Shown here in pieces: positions 323-44,996 of a DNA stretch of 64,000 bases. The position numbers were made by a program, and so were the translations under genes. The stretch's first letter is position 1. Each line of letters begins with the position of its first letter. The notes below the pieces were generated by a model that saw nothing but the letters and a program-made list of their open reading frames with translations, was not told the DNA's origin and searched no databases. The stretch is from NCBI GenBank assembly GCA_034687125.1, contig JAQGBZ010000077.1, positions 62,001 to 126,000 of the forward strand, in the 5' to 3' direction. The DNA comes from Neelides folsomi (taxonomy: Eukaryota > Arthropoda > Collembola > Neelipleona > Neelidae).

Positions 323-2492
323 ATGGTGGTAGTGGAGGAAATTGAAGAGGAGACTGTGGAAAATTCGTCCAAATGTCCAATCTGTAAAGTTGAGGCTGGG
401 TCTAGATGCTCTGCCTGTAATAAAGTAAGTTATTGTTCGAGAGAACATCAAAAAGCACATTGGAAGATTCATAAGAGTGAATGTGTCTCTTGGAAAATTT
501 GCGAGTCTCCTCAACTAGGGAGATATTTAACTGCAGTGAGAGACATTAAGCCGGGTGAATTAATTCTGATCGAAAAGCCTCTGGTGATCGTCCCACCGCG
601 AATTACACTTCCCATTTGCTTGCATTGCTATTCTGAGTTTCATTTCGATAATAATGAAAAAGAAGACGGTGGATCGAATGGTAAGTATATTTATACTTTA
701 ATTAATACTCTTCATGTGTTTCAATATAAAGGATGAATAAATTGTAAATACAGATAGAGTTACCTACATTTCTATTTATATAACTTTTAGATCACTCCAT
801 TCGTCCAGTTTCGTGCGGAAAAAATTGCGGTTGGCCAATGTGTGATTCACCTGATTGTATAGAATCAAGAGAAACCAGTGAACATGGAGCAGAATGTAAA
901 TTTGGAAAGGACCGTGGTGGGATGTCAATAAAGAATTTTGGTTCGGAGCATCCAACTTACCAAGCTGTTGGGCTGTTGAGAGTTATTGCATTAAAAGAAA
1001 AGGACCCGGAGAGCTTTGCACATTTGATGAATCTGCAGAGTAATATTGAAGAAAGACGACAAAAAGCATTGGAAGCAAGAGCTTTTCAGGCTCCAACTTC
1101 TGAACCTCAAACTGGTCCAGAATCATCCGATCTTTGGGTTTCTGTCAATTTAATAAGAAACTTTTTTAAACTCACCGAGTTTTCCCAAGATTTGATTGAA
1201 ACGATGGTTGGGATACTTGAAACAAATGGTCATGAAATTCCTCTTCCTGATAATTCTGGTAGACTTATGAGGAGACTCGTAGGTAATGCAGAATTATAAT
1301 TTTTATTTTACAAATGAGCTACTATGCTCAATTGGATGAATAGACTTCATTAAAATATAATAGAATTTAATTACGTGTAATATTAAGTATTAACTAAATT
1401 TTAATTATGACTATTTCAGGCGTTTACAACAATGCCTCATTTATTGAACATGACTGCAAGCCAAATTGTTACAAGACATTTGGGAAAAACAATGAAATTT
1501 TAATCCGAACCGGGGTTGGAATTAAAAAAGGTGATCACTTGAGCATCTCTTATGTGGATCCTTTATGGGGAACAAATGATCGGCTTAATTTCCTCCAACT
1601 GACAAAATTCTTTTCGTGCAAATGCACAAGATGCGTCGACAAGGCGGAACTCGGGTCTCACATCAGCAGCCTTCGGTGTCCACATCCAAAATGTCACGCT
1701 TATGGGTTTGATGGAGAGTCGAAGAATTGGAAAGGGATGATTTCCCCCTCGGATCCATTTGATCCAGAAGCCGATTGGAAGTGCAACACTTGCGAGGAAG
1801 ATTATCCACCCTCATATGCTGCGGCAATTGTAGAAAAGATAGCCAAAGACCTCGAAGCCTTGCAGCCCCAGCGAGGGTTAATTGACCCTGAAGAGGGCTT
1901 TTTGAAGAAAATCTCAAAATCGCTCCCTCCTTATCATTTCTTCAATTTGGAATTGAAGGTGGAATTGGGACAACTGTACGGACGGACACCGGAAGAACCT
2001 CTTAACGTCCTCAGTCCAGCTAAATTGCTCAGGAAGAGGATCCTTTGTGAAGAAGTGCTCAAAGCTGTGAGCATTCTAATTCCGGGACTTTCAAGAGTCA
2101 GATCGTTGATGCTTTACGAGCTCCAAGCTGCCGTTTGTCAGCTCTCGAAATTGAGGCACAGTTTGAGAGACATTTCACCAATTGCCCATCGAGATGAACT
2201 CATTGTAAGGGACAATTGTTTTTTTAAACTTTAGTTGTAGCAAGTAACATCCACCAAAGGATTTTTATTATTTTTTATTATTTATAAACAGGAATGTATA
2301 AAGATGAGCCGTGAAGTTATCCTCGTTCTTGGGAATGAACCAGAGAATTCAATTGAATTCAAAAGAGCCGATGGAGCAAAGAAAGAATTGCCATATTTGA
2401 GATCCATCATTGAGTCTCTTGAAGAAGAAGAAAAACATGAAAAGCCACAACCTCCTCCAATGAAAATTGACGATGATTTAGAGTTGTTTTAA
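323..2492 (+). CDS. SET and MYND domain protein, SmydA-like
   Basis: Four exons, 323-680, 791-1282, 1420-2204 and 2292-2492, join in phase to 611 aa. An N-terminal MYND zinc finger (about residues 18-54) has the pattern CPIC..CSAC..YCS..H..H...C. It is followed by the start of a split SET domain (RYLTAVRDIKPGE). The SET core comes in exon 3: NNASFIEHDCKPN, then KKGDHLSISYVDP, then the post-SET cysteines CKCTRC. This is the layout of SMYD proteins, which methylate lysines on histones or other proteins. The length and the insert between the SET halves fit the arthropod SmydA group better than vertebrate SMYD1-3. The usual NHSCxPN motif reads EHDCKPN here, so activity is uncertain. The C-terminal exon is acidic and ends in a short Pro-rich tail. 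A polyadenylation-like aataaa lies at 2529. Confidence 0.86.
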
Positions 2493-13100: not shown

Positions 13101-15286
13101 GAAACACCCGAAATTAATAAGTATCAATTCCGCCAAGACGTGCTCAACCTGATGCATTTTCTTCCATAATGTTATTGACTCTCGGCCCTCCTTCAAATGT
13201 TTTGACAAGTTTTGGCAAATTTAAACCCTCCTTTACTATCATTTGTCTAAATAACCATCGATGAAAAAACTGTGGCTCTCGTTTATGCTCGCAAAAAAGA
13301 AGGAGCGATGATTCTTCTTTTTCAATCTTCTCTATATCGCTCTTTTGTGTACCATAACCATATACCACTCACATATCACTTTTTCCTAGTTGGATCGTAA
13401 TCCTTTCGACATACTACACAATCATTTAATCCTTTAATGTTCCATGTACTATGGGTGCTTCTTCAATTCTTGATCCCAACCTTATGAAAAGAATTTGAAA
13501 GCTCTGAAGTGACAAAGTCTTAACTGATTAAGCATGTGCATATACGGTAATTCTCTCGACATTATCTCTCATCTCAACAGTAGCGATGATTCGAAAAGAG
13601 AAAATCAAATTGGATACTTTTACATAATTTAATTTAATTAAATATTTAAAAAATTGATAAGATCAACAAACAACTTCTTATTTAAGTTAATTTCGATTTC
13701 TACATTTTTTGTATTTTGGGTGATAAAGTTTAGTTGCTTTAAAGTTATCTAGAGAAAACACAATACTAGAAATCGTAAATTACTTATGTAGATCAATCAA
13801 TTTAATAAAAGTTTACTATTTGATGTTGGGTACGTTATTTATGTAAAACAAAAGGATTGAGCATTACATGGTTTTAAACTTGATTAAATTGTCAATTAAG
13901 ACGGAGTTGGTGGCAGCCGACAATGGACAAATGGACATGGGCCAGTTCACCACGAGAATGGAAATGCAACTCGGCATGAAGAAAGACTTTCGACTCTTTC
14001 CAGGTAACTTCACTATTTTTAAATTTTTATAAATCAAAATCTTCAGCAATCATTATCATTCTTATATTTTTAGGTATTTAGGCAATTAGTACATTTTTTA
14101 TATTTTAAGTGCTTTTTTAAATAGCTTTGATGTATTAATAAAGCATTAATAATACTATACCACATTAAAATTGCAAATTAGAAATGCGTTATTGCTTCTC
14201 ATGTCCTTTAGAAATTTACTCACCCAAAGCTTATTGTCAGGTCATTAATAAACCACATATGATATGACAAGTGTCCTTTGCAATATCCCTCCCGTATAGT
14301 TCCACTTTCAGTAATGAGAGTATAAAGGCAAAAATTCATCCGGTGCGACAGCCGACTCAAAAAATATTGTTCGTTGACAAAAAGTTCCGGAATCTTTGAG
14401 GATCTCCTCACTCCATTACGAGTTCGGTCTGTGACGTTCAATGAACTGTTTTGGGGAGCTCCTGGTGATCTTTACGAATGGATGCTCCCTCGTCTTCAAC
14501 CCACTCAGCCTCAATGTCGAGAAGAGCGATGAGAGTCTCGTAATGACAACGAGACTATCGACTCGTGATTCCTCTCTACTTATCTCTCACTTAACTCATT
14601 CCCCTACTCTCGCTTTTTAATCTCCCCACTTCGCCTTCCCCGAGGGGGATTATTCTTACATGGTTAGCAAAGTTGTAAAAGCTCCATTTTCACAAGAAAA
14701 ATGTATTTAAAATTGTAGAATCATTTTTTTAAATGTGAGCATTTGGCTTAACGCCAATCTCATAGTTCAAGAGCAGGAAACCTCACCACAACAGTCAACA
14801 ATCTGAACGATAAAAGAGCTAATAAGTTTTTAAACTCCTTTTTAAGAGTTTTAATTATGTTTACTATTCTCTTTACTTGAGACTTGAACTATAAATCGAA
14901 GAGATGTTGAGAGGATTGTTAGGGGTTGACTATGATTGAGTATAAGTTTTGAAGAACAACAGTTATTGGAGTTTGGTGAGAGAGCGGTGCCCTTTTTCTC
15001 TCCGCAGATCTACCAATACAATTACACACATCAGTTTTTTCCTCCTACGCGAACTTTCTCGACAATAACTCTTTTTCTCAAAAGGGAGAACTCGGCTCAG
15101 TTTCCAATCTACATTACACCTCATAGCTTCCTCACCCGTTCCCGATAATGTTATTATTATTTAAAGATCCAACAATGAGATTCTGATGGTTAACATCGCA
15201 TCGAGCTCCTTACATGGATCTCAAGACTATTGTTATTGCTGCTAATGTGAATATATTAGTGAATGTTTTTTTTAAAAAATCTACAG
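13100..15286. other. Region that may hold 5' exons of the calpain-like gene
   Basis: The first recognisable calpain exon starts mid-codon at 15287, so at least one coding exon lies upstream. A splice donor at 14003/14004 (ccag|gtaact) ends an open stretch that joins in the right phase to 15287 in one frame, but I find no convincing start Met in that frame. A second open stretch (about 14336-14530) has no clear splice signals. The true 5' end is unresolved. Confidence 0.3.
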
Positions 15287-18200
15287 GTACTGGACAGCTG
15301 AGAGGAATGGGACGAGTCGAGTTAGCCCATATGTGAAACTGAAGCGTCAATGTCTGGAGCGTGGGACTGTGTGGGAAGATCCGGATTTCTCTCCGTCTTA
15401 TAAACTCCTCCCAAAATCTAAGAAGTTCTCATATCCCATCGTATGGCTTCGACCCCATGTGAGACATTCCCCATTACTCAAACTCACACTCACAATAACA
15501 AGGTCGTAATTTAGTGGAGATGAAACGAGAACGCGTTTCACATGATCTCCCGACTCCCGTTCATATGCACATTAAATTACATGGTTCATCCTAATCGACA
15601 TCTCCACTCGTTGCCCATTAACCGAACGCAATTAATCATTTAACTGGTCAAATCCATCCAATTACAACTCTTGGTGAAACTTGATCCATACAGATTAGGC
15701 TGTTGAAATATTAAGTTACGTGTCATTCATAGTCAAATGGTGTGTGTCGGTATTTAAGGAGATGGTTTCAAGATTAAGTAAAATATCTGTAAAGATAGGA
15801 ATTGAGAGATTTGAGAGAAAAGCAAGTAGGAGATGAAAAAGGATAAAATATTGGATTTTAAAATAAAATTCTAAAGATTCTTTGATGTCGGATGTTAAAT
15901 CATTTATGTTAATAAGACTTGGGAACTGGTTTTCAATAGTATTCGGGAGTATCTGATTCAAATTTTCATCATTGGTACATTACATTATTCCCGGTTTCCG
16001 CTCCTTATTGTTAGCGTCACTTTTAATTTATTGCCAATTCCTGAATCAGAAAGGTGAAGGATTCAACCGCATTTTCTCAATGAAAATGAGATTCTTTGTG
16101 ATGGGAGTGGGAAAGGGAATTGATGATTTTATGGTATTCGTTTTTAGCAAAAATGTCTTTTTAATCGACTTTCTACTTGGTTGATCAAGGAGAGTTGCTC
16201 ATTCTTGTAGGAACTCATCTCATCAATCAGTTTCTAACCTTTAAGATTACGATGCTTAACATTTGTACTGTGGAATTTTAAAAGGTGTTACTTTTGCTTT
16301 TATCAATACATAACACCTCAGACAGATACATATTTTACAGTACGTGTTCAAAGCCATCGCCATTATAATATACACTTTATGTACATTAATTACATAGCAT
16401 ATATGTAGGGACTCATACTAGCTATATCCATATTACCTCTATGATCCCAATTTACTGTATGTATTAGGGTTTCATTTGCAAAATCACGGTCAATTACATT
16501 ATTAATTAATAGTTAAATTCTAATAGGAATTAGTCGCCCATCCAAGATTCAGTTCAGAATCTCCTGGGAAAATCCCATTAGAAGTAGGACTACAAGGAGA
16601 TGTTTGGCTTCTCCTCGCCATTACAACACTTGCAACGACGCCTCGGCTCCTCGAAAGAAACGTACCATTCGACCAGACCTTCGATCATGGATATTCGGGG
16701 ATTTTCAGGTAATTAAATTTTAAGGAGATTGGGCGTTCTAACAACTACGTGTCCATGCGAGTTTTTAACGGAAGTAAATTTTGACAGATTCCGGTTTTGG
16801 CAGTTTGGATCTTGGGTTGAAGTCTGTGTCGATGACAGACTTCCAACATGCCGAGGACGGCCTATTGGAATCATCCCTGCTGAACATTCACACTCAGAGT
16901 TTTGGCCGCCTCTCCTTGAAAAGGCGTATGCCAAGTAAGGGAACAATATATTGTTAATCTTCCTCATTCCTCATCCTATTAAGAGGTCAAAAGTTCTGAA
17001 CTGACAATGAGAGACTTGGGAAATTAACCGCTTCTCCATACATATCATACAATTTCATATAAGGAGTTTACGTTATAAATTAACCAATTTCACTTCAAGT
17101 TCAATCAGTAGTTTGAAACCTAAACAAAAGGATTAAACAAATAGAAAACATTGGATAATGGGAATAACCTTTAATAAAATAAAAGTTCATTTTTAAAATG
17201 TTTACTAATGTATGGTATAAATTCTCTCAGGTTGTATGGTGGGTATGATAAACTAGTCGATGGAAGTGGTGCCAGGGCTCTTCAGGATCTCACAGGCGGA
17301 ATCGTTCAGAGCTTTGCCTTAGCCTCACAAGACAGATTCCTTACTTACCAAGTACTCAATTCCGCCGTGCCTCGCTCAACCCTCATCGTCGCCTCTATCC
17401 TACCAGTAAGTGGAGGAAATATTTTTTTATTGTCTTACTCGGAAATTAAAGTTTATTAAGTTGGGCGAGAAGAGTTCAAAGGTTTAAGTAGGTAATACGG
17501 CATTCAAGGGACGAAAGAACATGATTGAGTTCAATATGAGCTTTCCCCCTTATTTATTATTGAATTTTACAGGATCGTGAACGACGCGCCTTGAAACTCC
17601 GCCACGGCCTCGTCACCCATTCGGCCTATGACGTCACGGGGTGAAGATCTTTATAACATTTGTTGTGTAGAAAAGATACGGAGCTCGTGGAAGCACGTTT
17701 GTGCTTTACGAGGGGAGATATGACTTATGAGACGCAATTAAAACCTGATTGTTTCTAATTAATGGGATAATTGCGGCAGGTTGGCGAGGGTTCGAGACAG
17801 CAACGGGAGCGGGACGATGGGAGAGACGCCTTTGGTGAGACTTCGTGGTCCGTGGGGGAGAGGGAATTGGGTCGGAGGTTGGGCCGAACGGTCGCCCGAG
17901 TGGGAATCCCTCCCGGAGCGAGACAAGGAAGTGTTGTCAATTAAAACAAGGACCGATGGAGAATTCTGGATTTCCTTTCAAGACTTTGCTAAATTCTTCA
18001 CTCAGCTTGAACTTGTGCATGTTGGGCCGGACGATTGGTTACAAGAGACGGCCCTTCAGCCCAGGAAACCCTGGAGGGCCGTGCTGGCCAAGAGGAGATG
18101 GAGGAAAGGATACAATGCCGGTGGTGGGCCTGACTATCCAGGTAGGAAACAATGTTTATTCAAACTATTCAACATATTAAAATATTTCTTATGAATACAG

Positions 18201-20776
18201 AGACGACGGCAATGAACCCACAATTTGTTGTTCAAATCCCTCGAGGATCCGTTTCGAAATGCCACGTCGTCGTGGCTGTGACACAACAATATGGAGATGC
18301 CGGGTCGGAGTCTTCAACTTCTCTAAATACGAAAGAAAAGCCTGGAAAGTTTTTCCCCATTGGATTTGCTGTGTATGAAGCTCGTCCGAACATCAACAGG
18401 ATAACTCCACATTTTGTAGCTGAAAATGTAATAAGATTTCATACTTATAAGAACTTATAACAATACATATAGAGTAAAAGTTTTATATAAAAATTTTTGA
18501 ATGGTCGAGAAAAAATTTATTTTTATTGGTTCTTGGATTGGTTCTTGGATCTTAGATTGGCCATTTAGTTTCACTGAAGCTTCTGGAATTATTTCAGCCA
18601 TAAGATTACTGTATGAATCCTTTGGTTTAATGTTTTATTTTAAGATGTTTAACGATGTAGAAATTGATTTGGACATTCATTTGATACGAATAGGGCTATA
18701 ATGAGTGAGCGAGGATGAAATAATTATTAGGTAAACAGGATTCCAGTTAAGCAAGTTTCATGTGAATGAGCCAACTCATAACTTCTTCCTCTCGGACCTA
18801 ACGGACTTGACTGAGTTCCGTAAACATAAGAGAAGAGATACTTACACACGTGTGTGTATATTATTGTTATGTTTAGTATATTCCGTTCATCCTCTGGTTC
18901 TCTTTAATTATTTGTTGGGAAATTAGACCCTCGATTCATTTCCCCTTCACCGCAAACTCCTTTAAGATCCCTATGTTCTCTCATCAACTCTTCTTCTTAA
19001 ATTAGAGTGAATTCAAAAGGAAGGACTGAACTTTTAATTTGCTCTTAGCTTCAATTATATTTCTCCAACTTTGTATCCTTCAACTGTAGTTTTCATTTAC
19101 AAACTGAGAAGTTGATTTACAATCTGGTTCGTCTAGAGAAGACAATTTAAAAAAATGGCCATTTGAATGAGCTCCATTCAGCATGATTTGAATGGCTATT
19201 CAGGATGTTAATTAATATGCAATGAGATGAGTTTAAATTCAAAATCACTGAAGCTCTCAATTTATTTAATTTTCCTTACAATGCCACTATGAGTCAAGTT
19301 AATAAAGGTAAAGTTAAATTACAAATAGATGAACTGTTATGAAATGTGTTCAATGGGAATATTTCAATATTTGTGCAGAGACCCTTGGACGTGACTCAAC
19401 ATTCGGTGTCGAGAGAAGTGGCTACATTTTTTGCTCTGCCTCCTGGGGAATACGTCATCATTCCGCAAACGAAAGTTCCTAACTGCGAAGCAAAATTTCT
19501 CCTTCGGATTCTAACGGATGAACAAAGCACTATATGGTGAATTTGCGAAATGGAAATTTATATTTATTAAACATAGTCTACATGTCTTTCTTTGCTTATC
19601 AAATTATGATTTATTAGGGAGGTGAATGAAGATAACATGTTGTATAGGAATTTCACAGTTGATAGCTTCGACAATAATTTAAGTTCGGTGAGTAAAGTTA
19701 CTTTTATCACGCCTTGTTGTAAAGTTGTTAAACAGTTACTGATATTTTATTTACCGATATCGAATTAGCAGGAATGCAGACATCTCTTAGTCCGATGGAG
19801 TCAAAGGCTTTCTCCAGAAATTGACGCTGGACAATTTAGAAGACTTATTAAAAATCACTGGAAACGTATGGAATTCATGTTATTCTAAACATTTCAACGA
19901 TACTTTTTAATACTTTTTAATACTAAAATCGATATCTTTACGTTTAAGAAACCTTTACAAAAATTTGTGGAATCTATCCATATTTAGTATTTTCATAATT
20001 TAATCTTTATTTTATAAAAATTAGCTTGGCTTTGGAGCAAACCTTCATTGGAGCTTTGTAAAAGTCTTATAATGTTGAGAGATTCAAATATAAGTGGGAG
20101 ATTGTCTATGAAAGATCTTCCTGCTCTTCTCAACATGCTCTTATTTTGGAAGGTATACTTTACTTTAAAATGCTAATCAAATTACATACATAATATACTA
20201 TAATACACAATTAACAAACATTTACTGATATACCTTTACCACCGAAATTTCCAATACGTGATTGTCGTTTATTATAATTTTATATTTTAGGCCGCATTTC
20301 AAAAATGGGATCGTGGACGAGGCGGAAAAACAAGCAGTTATAATTTGAGACACATGCTTTGGGAGTCAGGAGTTGGTGTGTCGAATAAAGTTCTTGAATG
20401 TCTCGTCCTCAGATTTGCTCGTGATGCAATTCTCAGTTCCGAGTCATTCACATTGGCAATGCTCAGAATTCATCTTGCTCATGGTATGTATAAACAAACT
20501 TTACACAATGTCTATTATATTAACAATTATTCCAAATACCACTAAAGGCTAAATTAAACAATGTAAACTACAAATATCTTTATATTTATTTTTCAGAGAG
20601 ACATCATGCGCTCGATACGAAAACAAAGTCGAATCCGTTATCATTAGAAGAGGTAACATAAAATACTGAAGATAACTATTCATAAATATCATAAATTAGT
20701 TTTTATAATTTCCACAATAAATATAAATTGAATGTTTTCTTTATTTCAGATGATTTTGATGACAATATATTCGTAA
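15287..20776 (+). CDS. Calpain-family protein with destroyed active site (5' partial)
   Basis: Exons seen: 15287-15458, 16527-16708, 16788-16934, 17231-17405, 17573-17640, 17780-18141, 18201-18427, about 18739-18819, 19379-19536, 19618-19687, 19772-19865, 20025-20152, 20291-20483, 20597-20652 and 20750-20776. The order is that of a classical calpain. First is the protease core ([57 protein letters not shown]). Then come the C2-like domain III ([39 protein letters not shown]) and a penta-EF-hand domain ending [10 protein letters not shown], as in classical calpains. The catalytic Cys of GDCWLL is Val (16596-16598). The catalytic Asn of RNPWG is Gly (RGPWG). The His region ([11 protein letters not shown]) keeps its His. 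It should therefore be a non-proteolytic regulator, like mammalian calpain-6 or Drosophila CalpC in principle. The 18.4-19.4 kb joins do not close in phase as drawn. Confidence 0.9.
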
Positions 20777-30991: not shown

Positions 30992-33900
30992 CTACTCGGA
31001 TTCTTTATCACAATTATTATTTAAGGTTTTGGGAGGATTGAAAGGTGAAACATTTGTAGAAGACCCAACGCCGGAGTCCAATTTCTTTTCGTTGCTCTCT
31101 TCAAGAAACGAAGCTTCTCCTCTCGAGAGATCGAGGCGCAGATTCTCCCTTGTATGTCTCAATTCACCGAGTCGACTGTTGTTTTTACCTCCAAATGCGC
31201 CAGCTTCTCCTTCAAATATTTCTGTGTCGAATTTTTCCGGTGGATTTTGACAGCCAGAATCTTCGTCTTCCAAAACTATAAATTCAGATAATCGAAATAG
31301 GTAAGCTTACCATATACCATAATTACATCGAAATCGAAAGCATAACAAATTGATAAAAACTTACATCCAGCAGAAAGTCTGTAAAGATCGATGGGATTTC
31401 CCATTAGATTCTTTTCGAATTTAAGAACCTCATCTTCTGAATCGTCTTCGTGAACAATTGCGGCTTCCAATTCCTCTGAACTCAGGTCCCAGTCTAAAAA
31501 AGGGAAATTATTATCAAAAGATCTTGAGAATATATTAAAAATAGTAATTGAAATTTTGAATTTATGATACAAAATTATTACATACCTAGTGTGGCTTGCA
31601 TTGGAGCATTTTGTATAGGAATTTCTTTAGGTTCAGGTTCGTACTGATAAACATATTCCTGTTTCTTCCTTTCAAATGAAACTGATTTCCTTAAACTTGA
31701 TTTGCTGTCTCCGCTGCTAGTTGTTATATCAGGAGATTTGATGGCTGATTTTGAAGGAACAAGTGAAACGTCCCATTTTGACGGAACAAATTCCAATGTT
31801 TCTGAGGCTGCTTGGTTGAGAGTTCTCACTTCGTCATCACTCTCAGCTTCAAAATCTGGATGATATTGATCTCCACTACCCTCAGATTCGTCTCTAATAA
31901 ATGGAACTTTGAGATCGTTCAAAGGAGAATCGGCGGTTCCCTTCTTTTCAGGAACGATTACAGGGACATTTTGTCCTTCTAAATCTGTGAGAACGAGACT
32001 TCCATATTCATTAGTTGCCGCTGTAATTGCATCCTCAAAACTCACGGCCGACACGAATTTTCCAGAGTCTATTTAAAAATTAAATTATTATTTGAATAAA
32101 TTCATCAATTTAATGAGAAATGATAATTATTTTTTATGTATTAGTCCATTTTTTAAATTACTTGTTTCACAACTGAGATCAGTGTTGGGAGTTTTGTAGA
32201 GAGATTCAGTTTCTGTTTCTTTCGTCTCATTAATGAGTTTAGTCAAGTCTTTTCTTGGTTCGTGAATTTCTTCTTTATCCGAAGGATTGTCTGTGACATT
32301 ATCCCATGATGGAGTCTCATCAATTACATCAGATTTGGTTAAAACATCCCAAGATAAACCTACACCTTTTGGATCGGTATTTCTCAATTCATTTGAGTCG
32401 GTCTCTTCGATGAACGTTTTGTTAAATCCAAATTCTGACAGTTCTTGAGATTCATTCGACTTCTGAGCATTTTCAATTGTTGATGTGACTTTCTGATAGG
32501 GCTTCAATTCAAACGAATCGTCGGCTCCCATTGAAATTGAAGTTCCTTCCCTCTGACTAATATAATAATATTATTTTAATGATGGCCCAAATATGTTATA
32601 AATAAAATATTTTATGATAAATACCCATTGAAGCTGTCTGGTGTTTTGTTCGATTCACTTGACGTAGATTCCTTTTCACTCGATGAGATCGGACTAATAG
32701 AGCAAGTTTGATTTGGGGGAGAAATTTCAAAAACCCCATCTTCCAACTCCAAATTTTCATATACATTTACACCAGGACTTTTGATCGGTGTGCTTGCTTT
32801 CCTTCCTTTGACTTGAACCTCGTCATCAAACAGGAACTTGAGTTTCTTTGGTTTGGTTTCCACTCTTGGTTCAATGACTTGAGTTGCATTTATCACAGCT
32901 TCTTCATTTATATTTACACCCGGGCTTGGGGTTGGCGCAATAAAATTAATTTTTACATTTGGAATAGGGGTTGGTTCAATTATTTTGATTTGAATATTTG
33001 GATTCGGAGTTACTTGGAAATTTTCTCCATCTTTAATTGGAGTAGGTTCAATTATATTGATTTTAACAACATCTAGATTTGGAGTGCTTTGAAAAGAATT
33101 GGCAATGAGTTTTTTGGTGGGATCAATGAATTTAATTTCGGGGATTGGTGAAGAATCCATTACATTAAATGTTACTCCAATATTTGGTGAATTCTTATTC
33201 AAGCCCATTGATTTGGATTTTTCATTTGTATCATCTGGGAGAGTTACCTCAAATGTTTCTTGACTAGTACTATTTTCGCTCAATGAAGCTGCAAGGGATG
33301 ACTTCACTTCTCCCAATTTCTCTTCGAAACTCATCCCACTATCGTTGTTGACCCCAAAACTGAGACTCTCCATTTCATTCAAATCACTTTCCTCAACATG
33401 TGTGAGAATCATCAGATCTTGTACGCTTTGTGACTTCTCAATGACTTTTTGGGTTACAGTTGACTTTTCCACATTTTGTCTCCAAAGTTCTTCTTCTTCA
33501 TCTTCCTTGCTGAGATTGTAAAGATCTTCAATTCCGGAGAAACTCACGCTTTTCTTTTGATTCATATCTTTTCCAAACTTCTCCCATTTCTTTTCAAACA
33601 AATCCTCACTTATGAGATCCTCAAGTTGCTCGACAATTTTACCCATTTGTGGTCGATCGGTAGGAGTAATAGAAAAGCAATTTTGCATTACACTATAAAG
33701 AGATTCTGTGTCCGATAATGGCAATAAAGGGCGATTTAATGTGTAATCCTTCTCGCAAATGACTCTGTTGATGACATCGTCATCGACCATGTCAGAATAT
33801 GGGAGTTTTCCGAAAGAGCAAAGTTCCCAAAGAACGACTCCATAACTCCACACGTTTGCCATACCAGTAACCTAAAAATAAAGTAAAAATAAAGTAAAAA

Positions 33901-43571: not shown

Positions 43572-44996
43572 TCAATCCAAATCGAGCCTTTGTCTTGAAA
43601 TTGGATTCCCACAATGAGCTCTTGCTTCCTTTGCCTTCGACACTGCAGATTCAAAGTCTCGCATAGTGATAGGGCGGAGTGACATGTTACGTGAACCAGT
43701 TGATGTTGATGCCGATGAATCTCGAGTTTCACGGGATGCAAAAGGATTGAGTTTGGAGAACCAGCTGCGATTACATTCTGCCTCTCTAAAAAAGGTTATT
43801 GTTTTTTCATACTCAATTAATTATAATTTAATGGCTTTTGAATTCATATGATTAATTTATTTTAATTTACCTCATTGCATCGAGATCTTCGTCATCTACA
43901 CTTTGAGAAATTGTAGGATCTCTTGAAAGTTGAAGATCAGCAAGACATGCAACAGCAGCCGATCGAGCAACTTCTTTCAAATCAGATCCAGAGAATCCAT
44001 CAGTCAGTGAAGCCAACCTTCCAAGATCAAAGTCTGATGATAAGACTTCGTTCTTAAGCGTCAGGTCTAGAATATGCTTCCTTTGACCAATGTCTGGAAG
44101 AGGGATGTGAAATTTAGTGGCCATTCTTCGTAAAATTGCCCCATCCATATCCTTTGGCCTGTTCGTTGCTCCCATTACAATCACGGTTTTCTTAGGATCT
44201 GTTATTAATCCGTCCCATAAGGACATGAACTGGGCCTTCATCATTGCAGTAACTTCATGATCTTGTGTGGCTCGAAGTCGAAGAAGAGAATCAATTTCGT
44301 CGATAAAAATGATGCAAGGCTGCAATTTTTCAGCAAGTGTGAAAACAGCGGTGGTCAACTTTTGCGACTCCCCATACCATTTGTCAGTTAAAACTGAAAC
44401 ATCAAGATTGATGAACCAGCAACCAGCTTCCTTTGCCATTGCTTTTGCAATAAGAGTTTTTCCACATCCTGGTGGTCCATAGAGTAAAACTCCTATAAAA
44501 GTAAATTAAAGCAAATATTAAATTATAATTTTCATAAATGAGTTTTCAATAATGCCTACTTAAAAAAAGTAAATATTAGTTAATGAGGTTAACCTTTCGG
44601 GGGCTGAATGAGTCTTGATACTCTGCTCATTTTCTTTTGGGCTAAGACTGGATTGATCACTGTCTTCTTTAATTGCTCAATGACATCATCAAGACCAGCG
44701 ACATCGGCCCATGACACTTTGAGATGATTAGGATCAACAAGGTGAGATGCAATCATAATTTCATATTCATTAAGATTGACATTCTTCACTCCAAGACGAT
44801 CCATTAGCGCTCGAGCTTTTCCTTTCGCTTTCTGCTTTTGTTGATACGTTGGGTCAGCATATCTTAGAGCCCATCGTACTAAATAGAATGTTAATATCCC
44901 AAGACCTCCAGCTCTTATCAGGGATAGGACAACTTCTCTTCGATTGATAACCATTTCTTCAACGGGTTCGATCTTCGATAGCACTCCTCCGGTCAT
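43572..44996 (-). CDS. ATAD1: ATAD1 / Msp1 outer-membrane AAA ATPase
   Basis: Three minus-strand exons (44996-44594, 44492-43871, 43785-43572) join to 412 aa. An N-terminal TM helix (LIRAGGLGILTFYLVRWALR) precedes the AAA domain: WADVAGLDDVIEQLKKTV, Walker A LLYGPPGCGKT, pore loop KWYGES, Walker B IIFIDEIDSLL, sensor GATNRP, and GFSGSDLKEVARSAA. This is the Msp1/ATAD1 family, which pulls mislocalised tail-anchored proteins from the mitochondrial outer membrane and peroxisomes. The C-terminus is longer than in human ATAD1 (361 aa) and has a Ser/Thr-rich insert. Confidence 0.95.

Follow-up and report, generated by a model that had tools for sequence, protein, structure and literature searches.

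A classical calpain gene of Neelides folsomi that has lost its catalytic triad and is probably kept as a non-proteolytic binding protein

Inactive calpains are common, though little is known of what they do, and their role can be masked where an animal also has active penta-EF-hand (PEF) calpains. One survey counts 344 calpain-like proteins in which one or more catalytic residues are missing, Drosophila CALPC and CAPN6 among them, and gives typical calpains as absent from the nematodes examined (PMC3315469). Among classical calpains, family C takes its definition from the inactive Drosophila calpain C, in a clade with a bootstrap of 36; loss of catalytic residues is described for its members from Drosophila, Daphnia and Branchiostoma, and its lophotrochozoan members keep the triad (PMC5650170). 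Calpain-6, in which the Cys is replaced by Lys (PMC6823460; PMC13413365), is described as a calpain without proteolytic activity that binds VEGFA via domain III and stabilises microtubules (PMC6823460).

The gene described here lies in an AT-rich 64 kb window of the Neelides folsomi assembly (C77:62001-126000, the whole stretch of DNA that was analysed). Its product, the window calpain, resembles the described inactive members of family C in being a classical, PEF-type calpain that has lost catalytic residues (PMC5650170), and resembles calpain-6 as a calpain without proteolysis, a protein for which binding roles are reported (PMC6823460). Although CAPN1, CAPN2 and CAPN9 are among its best matches, the triad, the oxyanion Gln and several Ca2+ ligands are changed in the window calpain. 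The two inactive relatives also differ from it, i.e., the catalytic residues of Drosophila calpain C are Arg-Val-Ser but those of the window calpain are Val-Ser-Gly, and CAPN6 sits in the CAPN5/TRA-3 branch and has a C2 domain and no PEF domain, whereas the window calpain has one. A tree of eight core sequences, without a calpain C row, resolves only CAPN1 with CAPN2 and does not place the window calpain. The calpain literature consulted reports neither this gene nor the Val-Ser-Gly residue set, and for most inactive calpains it leaves the residues unstated. For an ecdysozoan to have a dead classical calpain is unsurprising, as is the residue set itself, and the window gene joins the known inactive classical calpains. 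One feature goes beyond routine: the genome yielded two classical-type calpains, both dead, and no live one. A genome with every found classical calpain dead would be a clean setting for learning what the scaffold alone does.

By translating and joining exons, we modelled the gene on the + strand at ca. 13931-20776, with 15 coding exons and 14 introns, all GT-AG, an ATG at the start and a sole, terminal stop. A shorter model of 14 exons, starting at 15288 and ending at 20776, has 13 GT-AG introns and encodes 686 residues with no internal stop. Joining an upstream exon that ends at 14003 to the acceptor AG at 15296-15297 leads to an in-frame ATG, and from the ATG at 13931 the protein comprises 707 residues. 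The first coding exon (candidate, 13931-14003, donor GTAACT) and the start codon are thus inferred from frame and splice sites, and ATGs at 13868, 13937, 13958, 13964 and 13976 likewise yield an open frame as alternative starts. Another first-exon reading, in a different frame (ca. 13900-14003, by eye), was dropped as it is without an ATG. The second exon (15298-15458) encodes the N-terminal anchor and the start of the protease core. Subdomain PC1 continues through the exons at 16527-16708, 16788-16934 (ending in LLEKAYA) and 17231-17405, the last of which holds the rest of PC1 and the start of PC2 (LYGGYDK...LIVASILP), and PC2 extends over 17573-17640 and 17780-18141. The interval that the earlier note had assigned to the calpain, 16527-17860, lies within the gene yet spans only part of the protease-core exons, and both domain III (18201-19536) and the PEF part (from 19769) fall outside it. 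Coding GC is 0.474 versus 0.303 in the introns, and the GC of the last exons drops toward intron values, from 19769 on ranging from 0.22 to 0.44.

The motifs GDVWLL and RLRGPWG are not chance occurrences, given that Peptidase_C2 (PF00648) matches residues 29-327 of the 686-residue model over profile positions 1-296 of 297 (Pfam, E 8e-78). A Calpain_III match (PF01067, E 4.3e-28, profile positions 2-136 of 137) indicates that the C2-like domain III is present, encoded in two parts by the exons at 18201-18427 and 19379-19536, after which a linker exon follows (19618-19687). The best PDB matches over residues 14-668 were mu-like calpain 1qxp (E 3e-104), CAPN1 7x79 (5e-100) and CAPN2 1kfu (3e-96), and the core matches CAPN9 1ziv (E 3e-71). 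The PDB search matched residues 552-685 to the CAPN3 chain 4okh (E 2.2e-11) and also to the small subunit, sorcin and grancalcin; Pfam returned no EF-hand match for the protein at E <= 1. This region comprises the exons for the EF1 region (19769-19865), EF2 (20025-20152), EF3/EF4 (20291-20483) and EF5 (20597-20652), followed by the last coding exon (20750-20776), whose C-terminal residues look like those that close chain 1qxp, QEWLQLTMYS. Judged by its predicted domain order, protease core - domain III - PEF, this is a classical (typical) calpain of the penta-EF-hand type.

The catalytic machinery is gone. Two replacements that had been claimed for this locus hold in frame: the catalytic Cys is Val (codon GTT, 16602-16604) within GDVWLL at 16596-16613, and the catalytic Asn is Gly (codon GGT, 17847-17849) within RLRGPWG at 17838-17858. 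The claim that the His-containing segment remains, with only two of three catalytic residues lost, did not survive alignment. In the exon at 17573-17640, which carries THSAYDVT, the position of the catalytic His is occupied by Ser (codon TCG, 17621-17623); the His seen in this segment is its immediate upstream neighbour. This segment aligns to LVKGHAYSVTG of solved calpains without an internal gap (HMMER, MAFFT), so that, in CAPN1 numbering, Ser corresponds to His272 and the upstream His to Gly271, and a catalytic His can be recovered only via a paired deletion and insertion in the alignment. The whole triad is therefore lost and reads Val-Ser-Gly. The oxyanion-hole Gln of active calpains is absent as well, its site being Val (codon GTA, 16584-16586). 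Since nucleophile, base, Asn and oxyanion Gln are all gone, the sequence, combined with established calpain chemistry, predicts no peptide cutting by the calpain mechanism, i.e., calpain-type cysteine-protease chemistry is expected to be impossible for a Val-Ser-Gly protein with Val at the Gln site.

Part of the predicted calcium machinery is lost as well. At CAPN1 positions D106, E185, E302, D309, D331 and E333, which we take to be the two core Ca2+ sites, D106 has become Pro, E302 Asn and D309 Glu, and E185, D331 and E333 are kept. Alignment to PDB chains indicates that most ligands of the EF3 loop are lost (compared with D-L-D-K-S-G-S-M-S-A-Y-E) and that those of the EF2 loop are partly kept (compared with D-R-D-G-N-G-K-L-G-L-V-E). 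The core, domain III and penta-EF-hand part, which the earlier note had regarded as retained, are all present, but the EF-hand loops are degenerate and escape Pfam; such loops may mean that the PEF domain is itself in decay.

We consider that the window gene is a functional protein-coding classical calpain turned pseudoprotease that would act as a binding scaffold, a reading to which we assign a probability of about 0.72. A non-proteolytic scaffold role appears likely because the losses affect the catalytic machinery and part of the calcium machinery, whereas fold, domain III and PEF end remain. We postulate a scaffold that would be calcium-insensitive or weakly calcium-responsive, in which the protease fold and the C2-like domain III would serve as docking sites for proteins or membranes, and in which the PEF domain could, through its EF5 end, pair the protein with itself or with the second dead classical-type calpain of the genome (on contig C5, see below). 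Regulation would then operate by occupancy and not by cutting, as reported for calpain-6.

The other calpains of the genome bear on the partners that such a protein could have. A PF00648 search of the 75.1 Mb assembly (840 contigs) gave at least 13 stretches, and none in 14 prokaryote controls. By position, the 13 Peptidase_C2 stretches fall into four genes: the window gene (three stretches), C342:53-55 kb (five), C5:442-444 kb (three) and C5:45-52 kb (two); no CAPN15/SOL-type calpain was recognised among them. The C342 calpain (53-57 kb) has intact GNCWF, GHAYGIT and RNPWG motifs and is closest to CAPN5 (6p3q, E 2e-118). The calpain at C5:442-445 kb has intact SDCSF, THAY and KNPW, and presumably its resemblance is to CAPN7. 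The two intact-triad calpains are thus CAPN5-like and CAPN7-like, and no EF-hand part was noticed in their translations by eye. An open stretch on the C5:442-445 kb calpain locus (L016:7141-7330) resembles what we take to be the N-terminal part of a mariner-type transposase.

The fourth gene is a second classical-type calpain, spread over long introns at ca. 37.3-65 kb of C5, with a domain III match and EF-like pieces downstream (by eye). It is dead as well: VPGKLG|GDRW has Pro at the oxyanion Gln and Arg at the Cys, and RASGL replaces RNPWG, so that Asn is Ala. Its His exon was not found among open stretches of at least 10 residues on the + strand of C5:51851-58660, where the best chance match, GTHGAYGIYTG, was rejected as it has no visible splice acceptor. 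The two dead proteins are 37% identical (122/329 aligned residues), and their identity to human CAPN1 is 39% (137/350) for the window calpain and 43% (137/321) for the C5 one. As each is no closer to the other than to CAPN1, they are old paralogues and not a recent pair. We tentatively suggest, at somewhat less than even odds, that two anciently diverged PEF calpains are kept with none active, so that the whole classical complement would consist of pseudoproteases, possibly pairing through EF5; if true, it is for binding and not for cutting that this lineage has conserved the PEF-calpain architecture.

A codon scan of the genome for G[DN]CW[LF] returned 36 sites, compared with 13 for a reversed control pattern. 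One of the 36 is the C342 gene, and the other 35 had no calpain-like context in their translations, as judged by eye. Together, the PF00648 and G[DN]CW[LF] scans of the assembly found no classical (PEF) calpain with a catalytic Cys, and one could have escaped if its motif is diverged or split between exons, or if it lies in an assembly gap. This result weighs on the alternative that the window calpain inhibits an active classical calpain or acts as its decoy, via PEF heterodimers or substrate competition. Such a role would agree with the kept PEF C-terminus and fold, and the earlier note had suggested inhibition by dimerising, but the obvious target of such inhibition is gone, since neither the four genes nor the 35 other sites include a PEF calpain with a catalytic Cys and the active calpains found are the CAPN5-like and CAPN7-like ones. 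We regard this alternative as unlikely.

Another reading that we consider improbable is that of a recently disabled gene heading to decay, whose frame is still open by chance. It would account for the degenerate EF hands and for the long end branch of the window calpain (1.35, i.e., 2.5 times the median of 0.53 in the tree of eight core sequences). Given this fast evolution, relaxed constraint on the window calpain is possible. We set against it neutral simulations (300 runs per distance) that start from the present coding sequence, use the intron base composition and treat the triad changes as neutral, selected triad changes not being modelled. The simulated probability of finding no stop in 686 codons was 0.48 at 0.005 substitutions/site, 0.25 at 0.01, 0.077 at 0.02 and 0.007 at 0.05, and no run out of 300 stayed open at 0.1, 0.2 or 0.5. 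Long neutral decay, beyond ca. 0.05 substitutions/site, does not fit the open calpain frame. Replacing just the triad codons takes at least 2+3+2 = 7 base changes in nine positions, which implies a long divergence, and under neutral drift to 0.5 substitutions/site the simulated frame acquires 36 stops on average, with none seen in the gene. As neutral divergence of that order brings many stops, selection probably kept the frame open after or during the loss of the triad, and GT and AG are present at 14/14 modelled introns, which likewise argues against recent decay.

The distribution of the changes points in the same direction as the intact frame, though with modest p values. As invariant sites we took 94 aligned positions shared by five active calpains (CAPN1, CAPN2, CAPN9, CAPN5 and the genome's own CAPN5-like protein), 30 of which are changed in the window calpain. 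Changes affect 7/11 functional sites versus 23/83 other invariant sites (Fisher p 0.034), or 4/6 versus 6/37 (p 0.02) when the CAPN7-like protein of the genome is included as a sixth, and in the second dead calpain the same comparisons give 7/10 versus 18/77 (p 0.005) and 5/5 versus 4/34 (p 0.0002); the functional-site list was our own and was compiled after several changes had been seen, so all these p values are only indicative. The triad changes may themselves have been selected. The view that a pseudo-calpain is kept here as a protein is upheld by an intact reading frame over 15 exons, the misfit of neutral drift and the enrichment of changes at catalytic and Ca2+ sites.

Residual or altered catalysis, through the shifted His and another nucleophile, is suggested by the His one residue upstream of its canonical place, but we deem it very improbable because the Val at the Cys site is no nucleophile and the oxyanion Gln and the Asn are absent. 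That the substitutions are assembly or gene-model errors is just as hard to believe: the data come from a single assembly, but the errors would have to be three separate multi-base codon replacements, in three exons, within otherwise conserved motifs, and no second copy is reported in the assembly.

Beyond this genome, the window protein (497 residues, core plus domain III) found no relatives in the viral contig and genome contig collections. A three-row alignment found no loci in the viral contig collection and five in the genome contig collection, all titled as bacterial MAGs, one of them cyanobacterial, with no animal orthologue among them. A contig of the Okeania sp. SIO2C9 MAG (NZ_JAAHGO010000010.1) carries an intronless calpain ORF (L088:4902-6344) that is 39% identical to the window protein and has Ser at the catalytic Cys (GDSWLL), with HGYSVTG and RNPWG kept. 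The ORFs beside it presumably resemble transposase, and horizontal transfer is a possible origin of this calpain ORF.

Elsewhere in the window, Pfam recognised part of a SET domain in an open stretch at 1398-2234 (+), the end of a tyrosine/serine-threonine kinase at 32612-33871 (-) and an AAA ATPase domain at 43867-44505 (-). The assembly also contains a mitochondrial contig of 15,157 bases (C742, genetic code 5) in which, with names assigned by eye, ND2-COX1-COX2-ATP6-COX3-ND3 and ND6-CYTB share a strand, with ND5, ND4, ND4L and ND1 between them on the opposite one, an order that we take to be the arthropod ground pattern.
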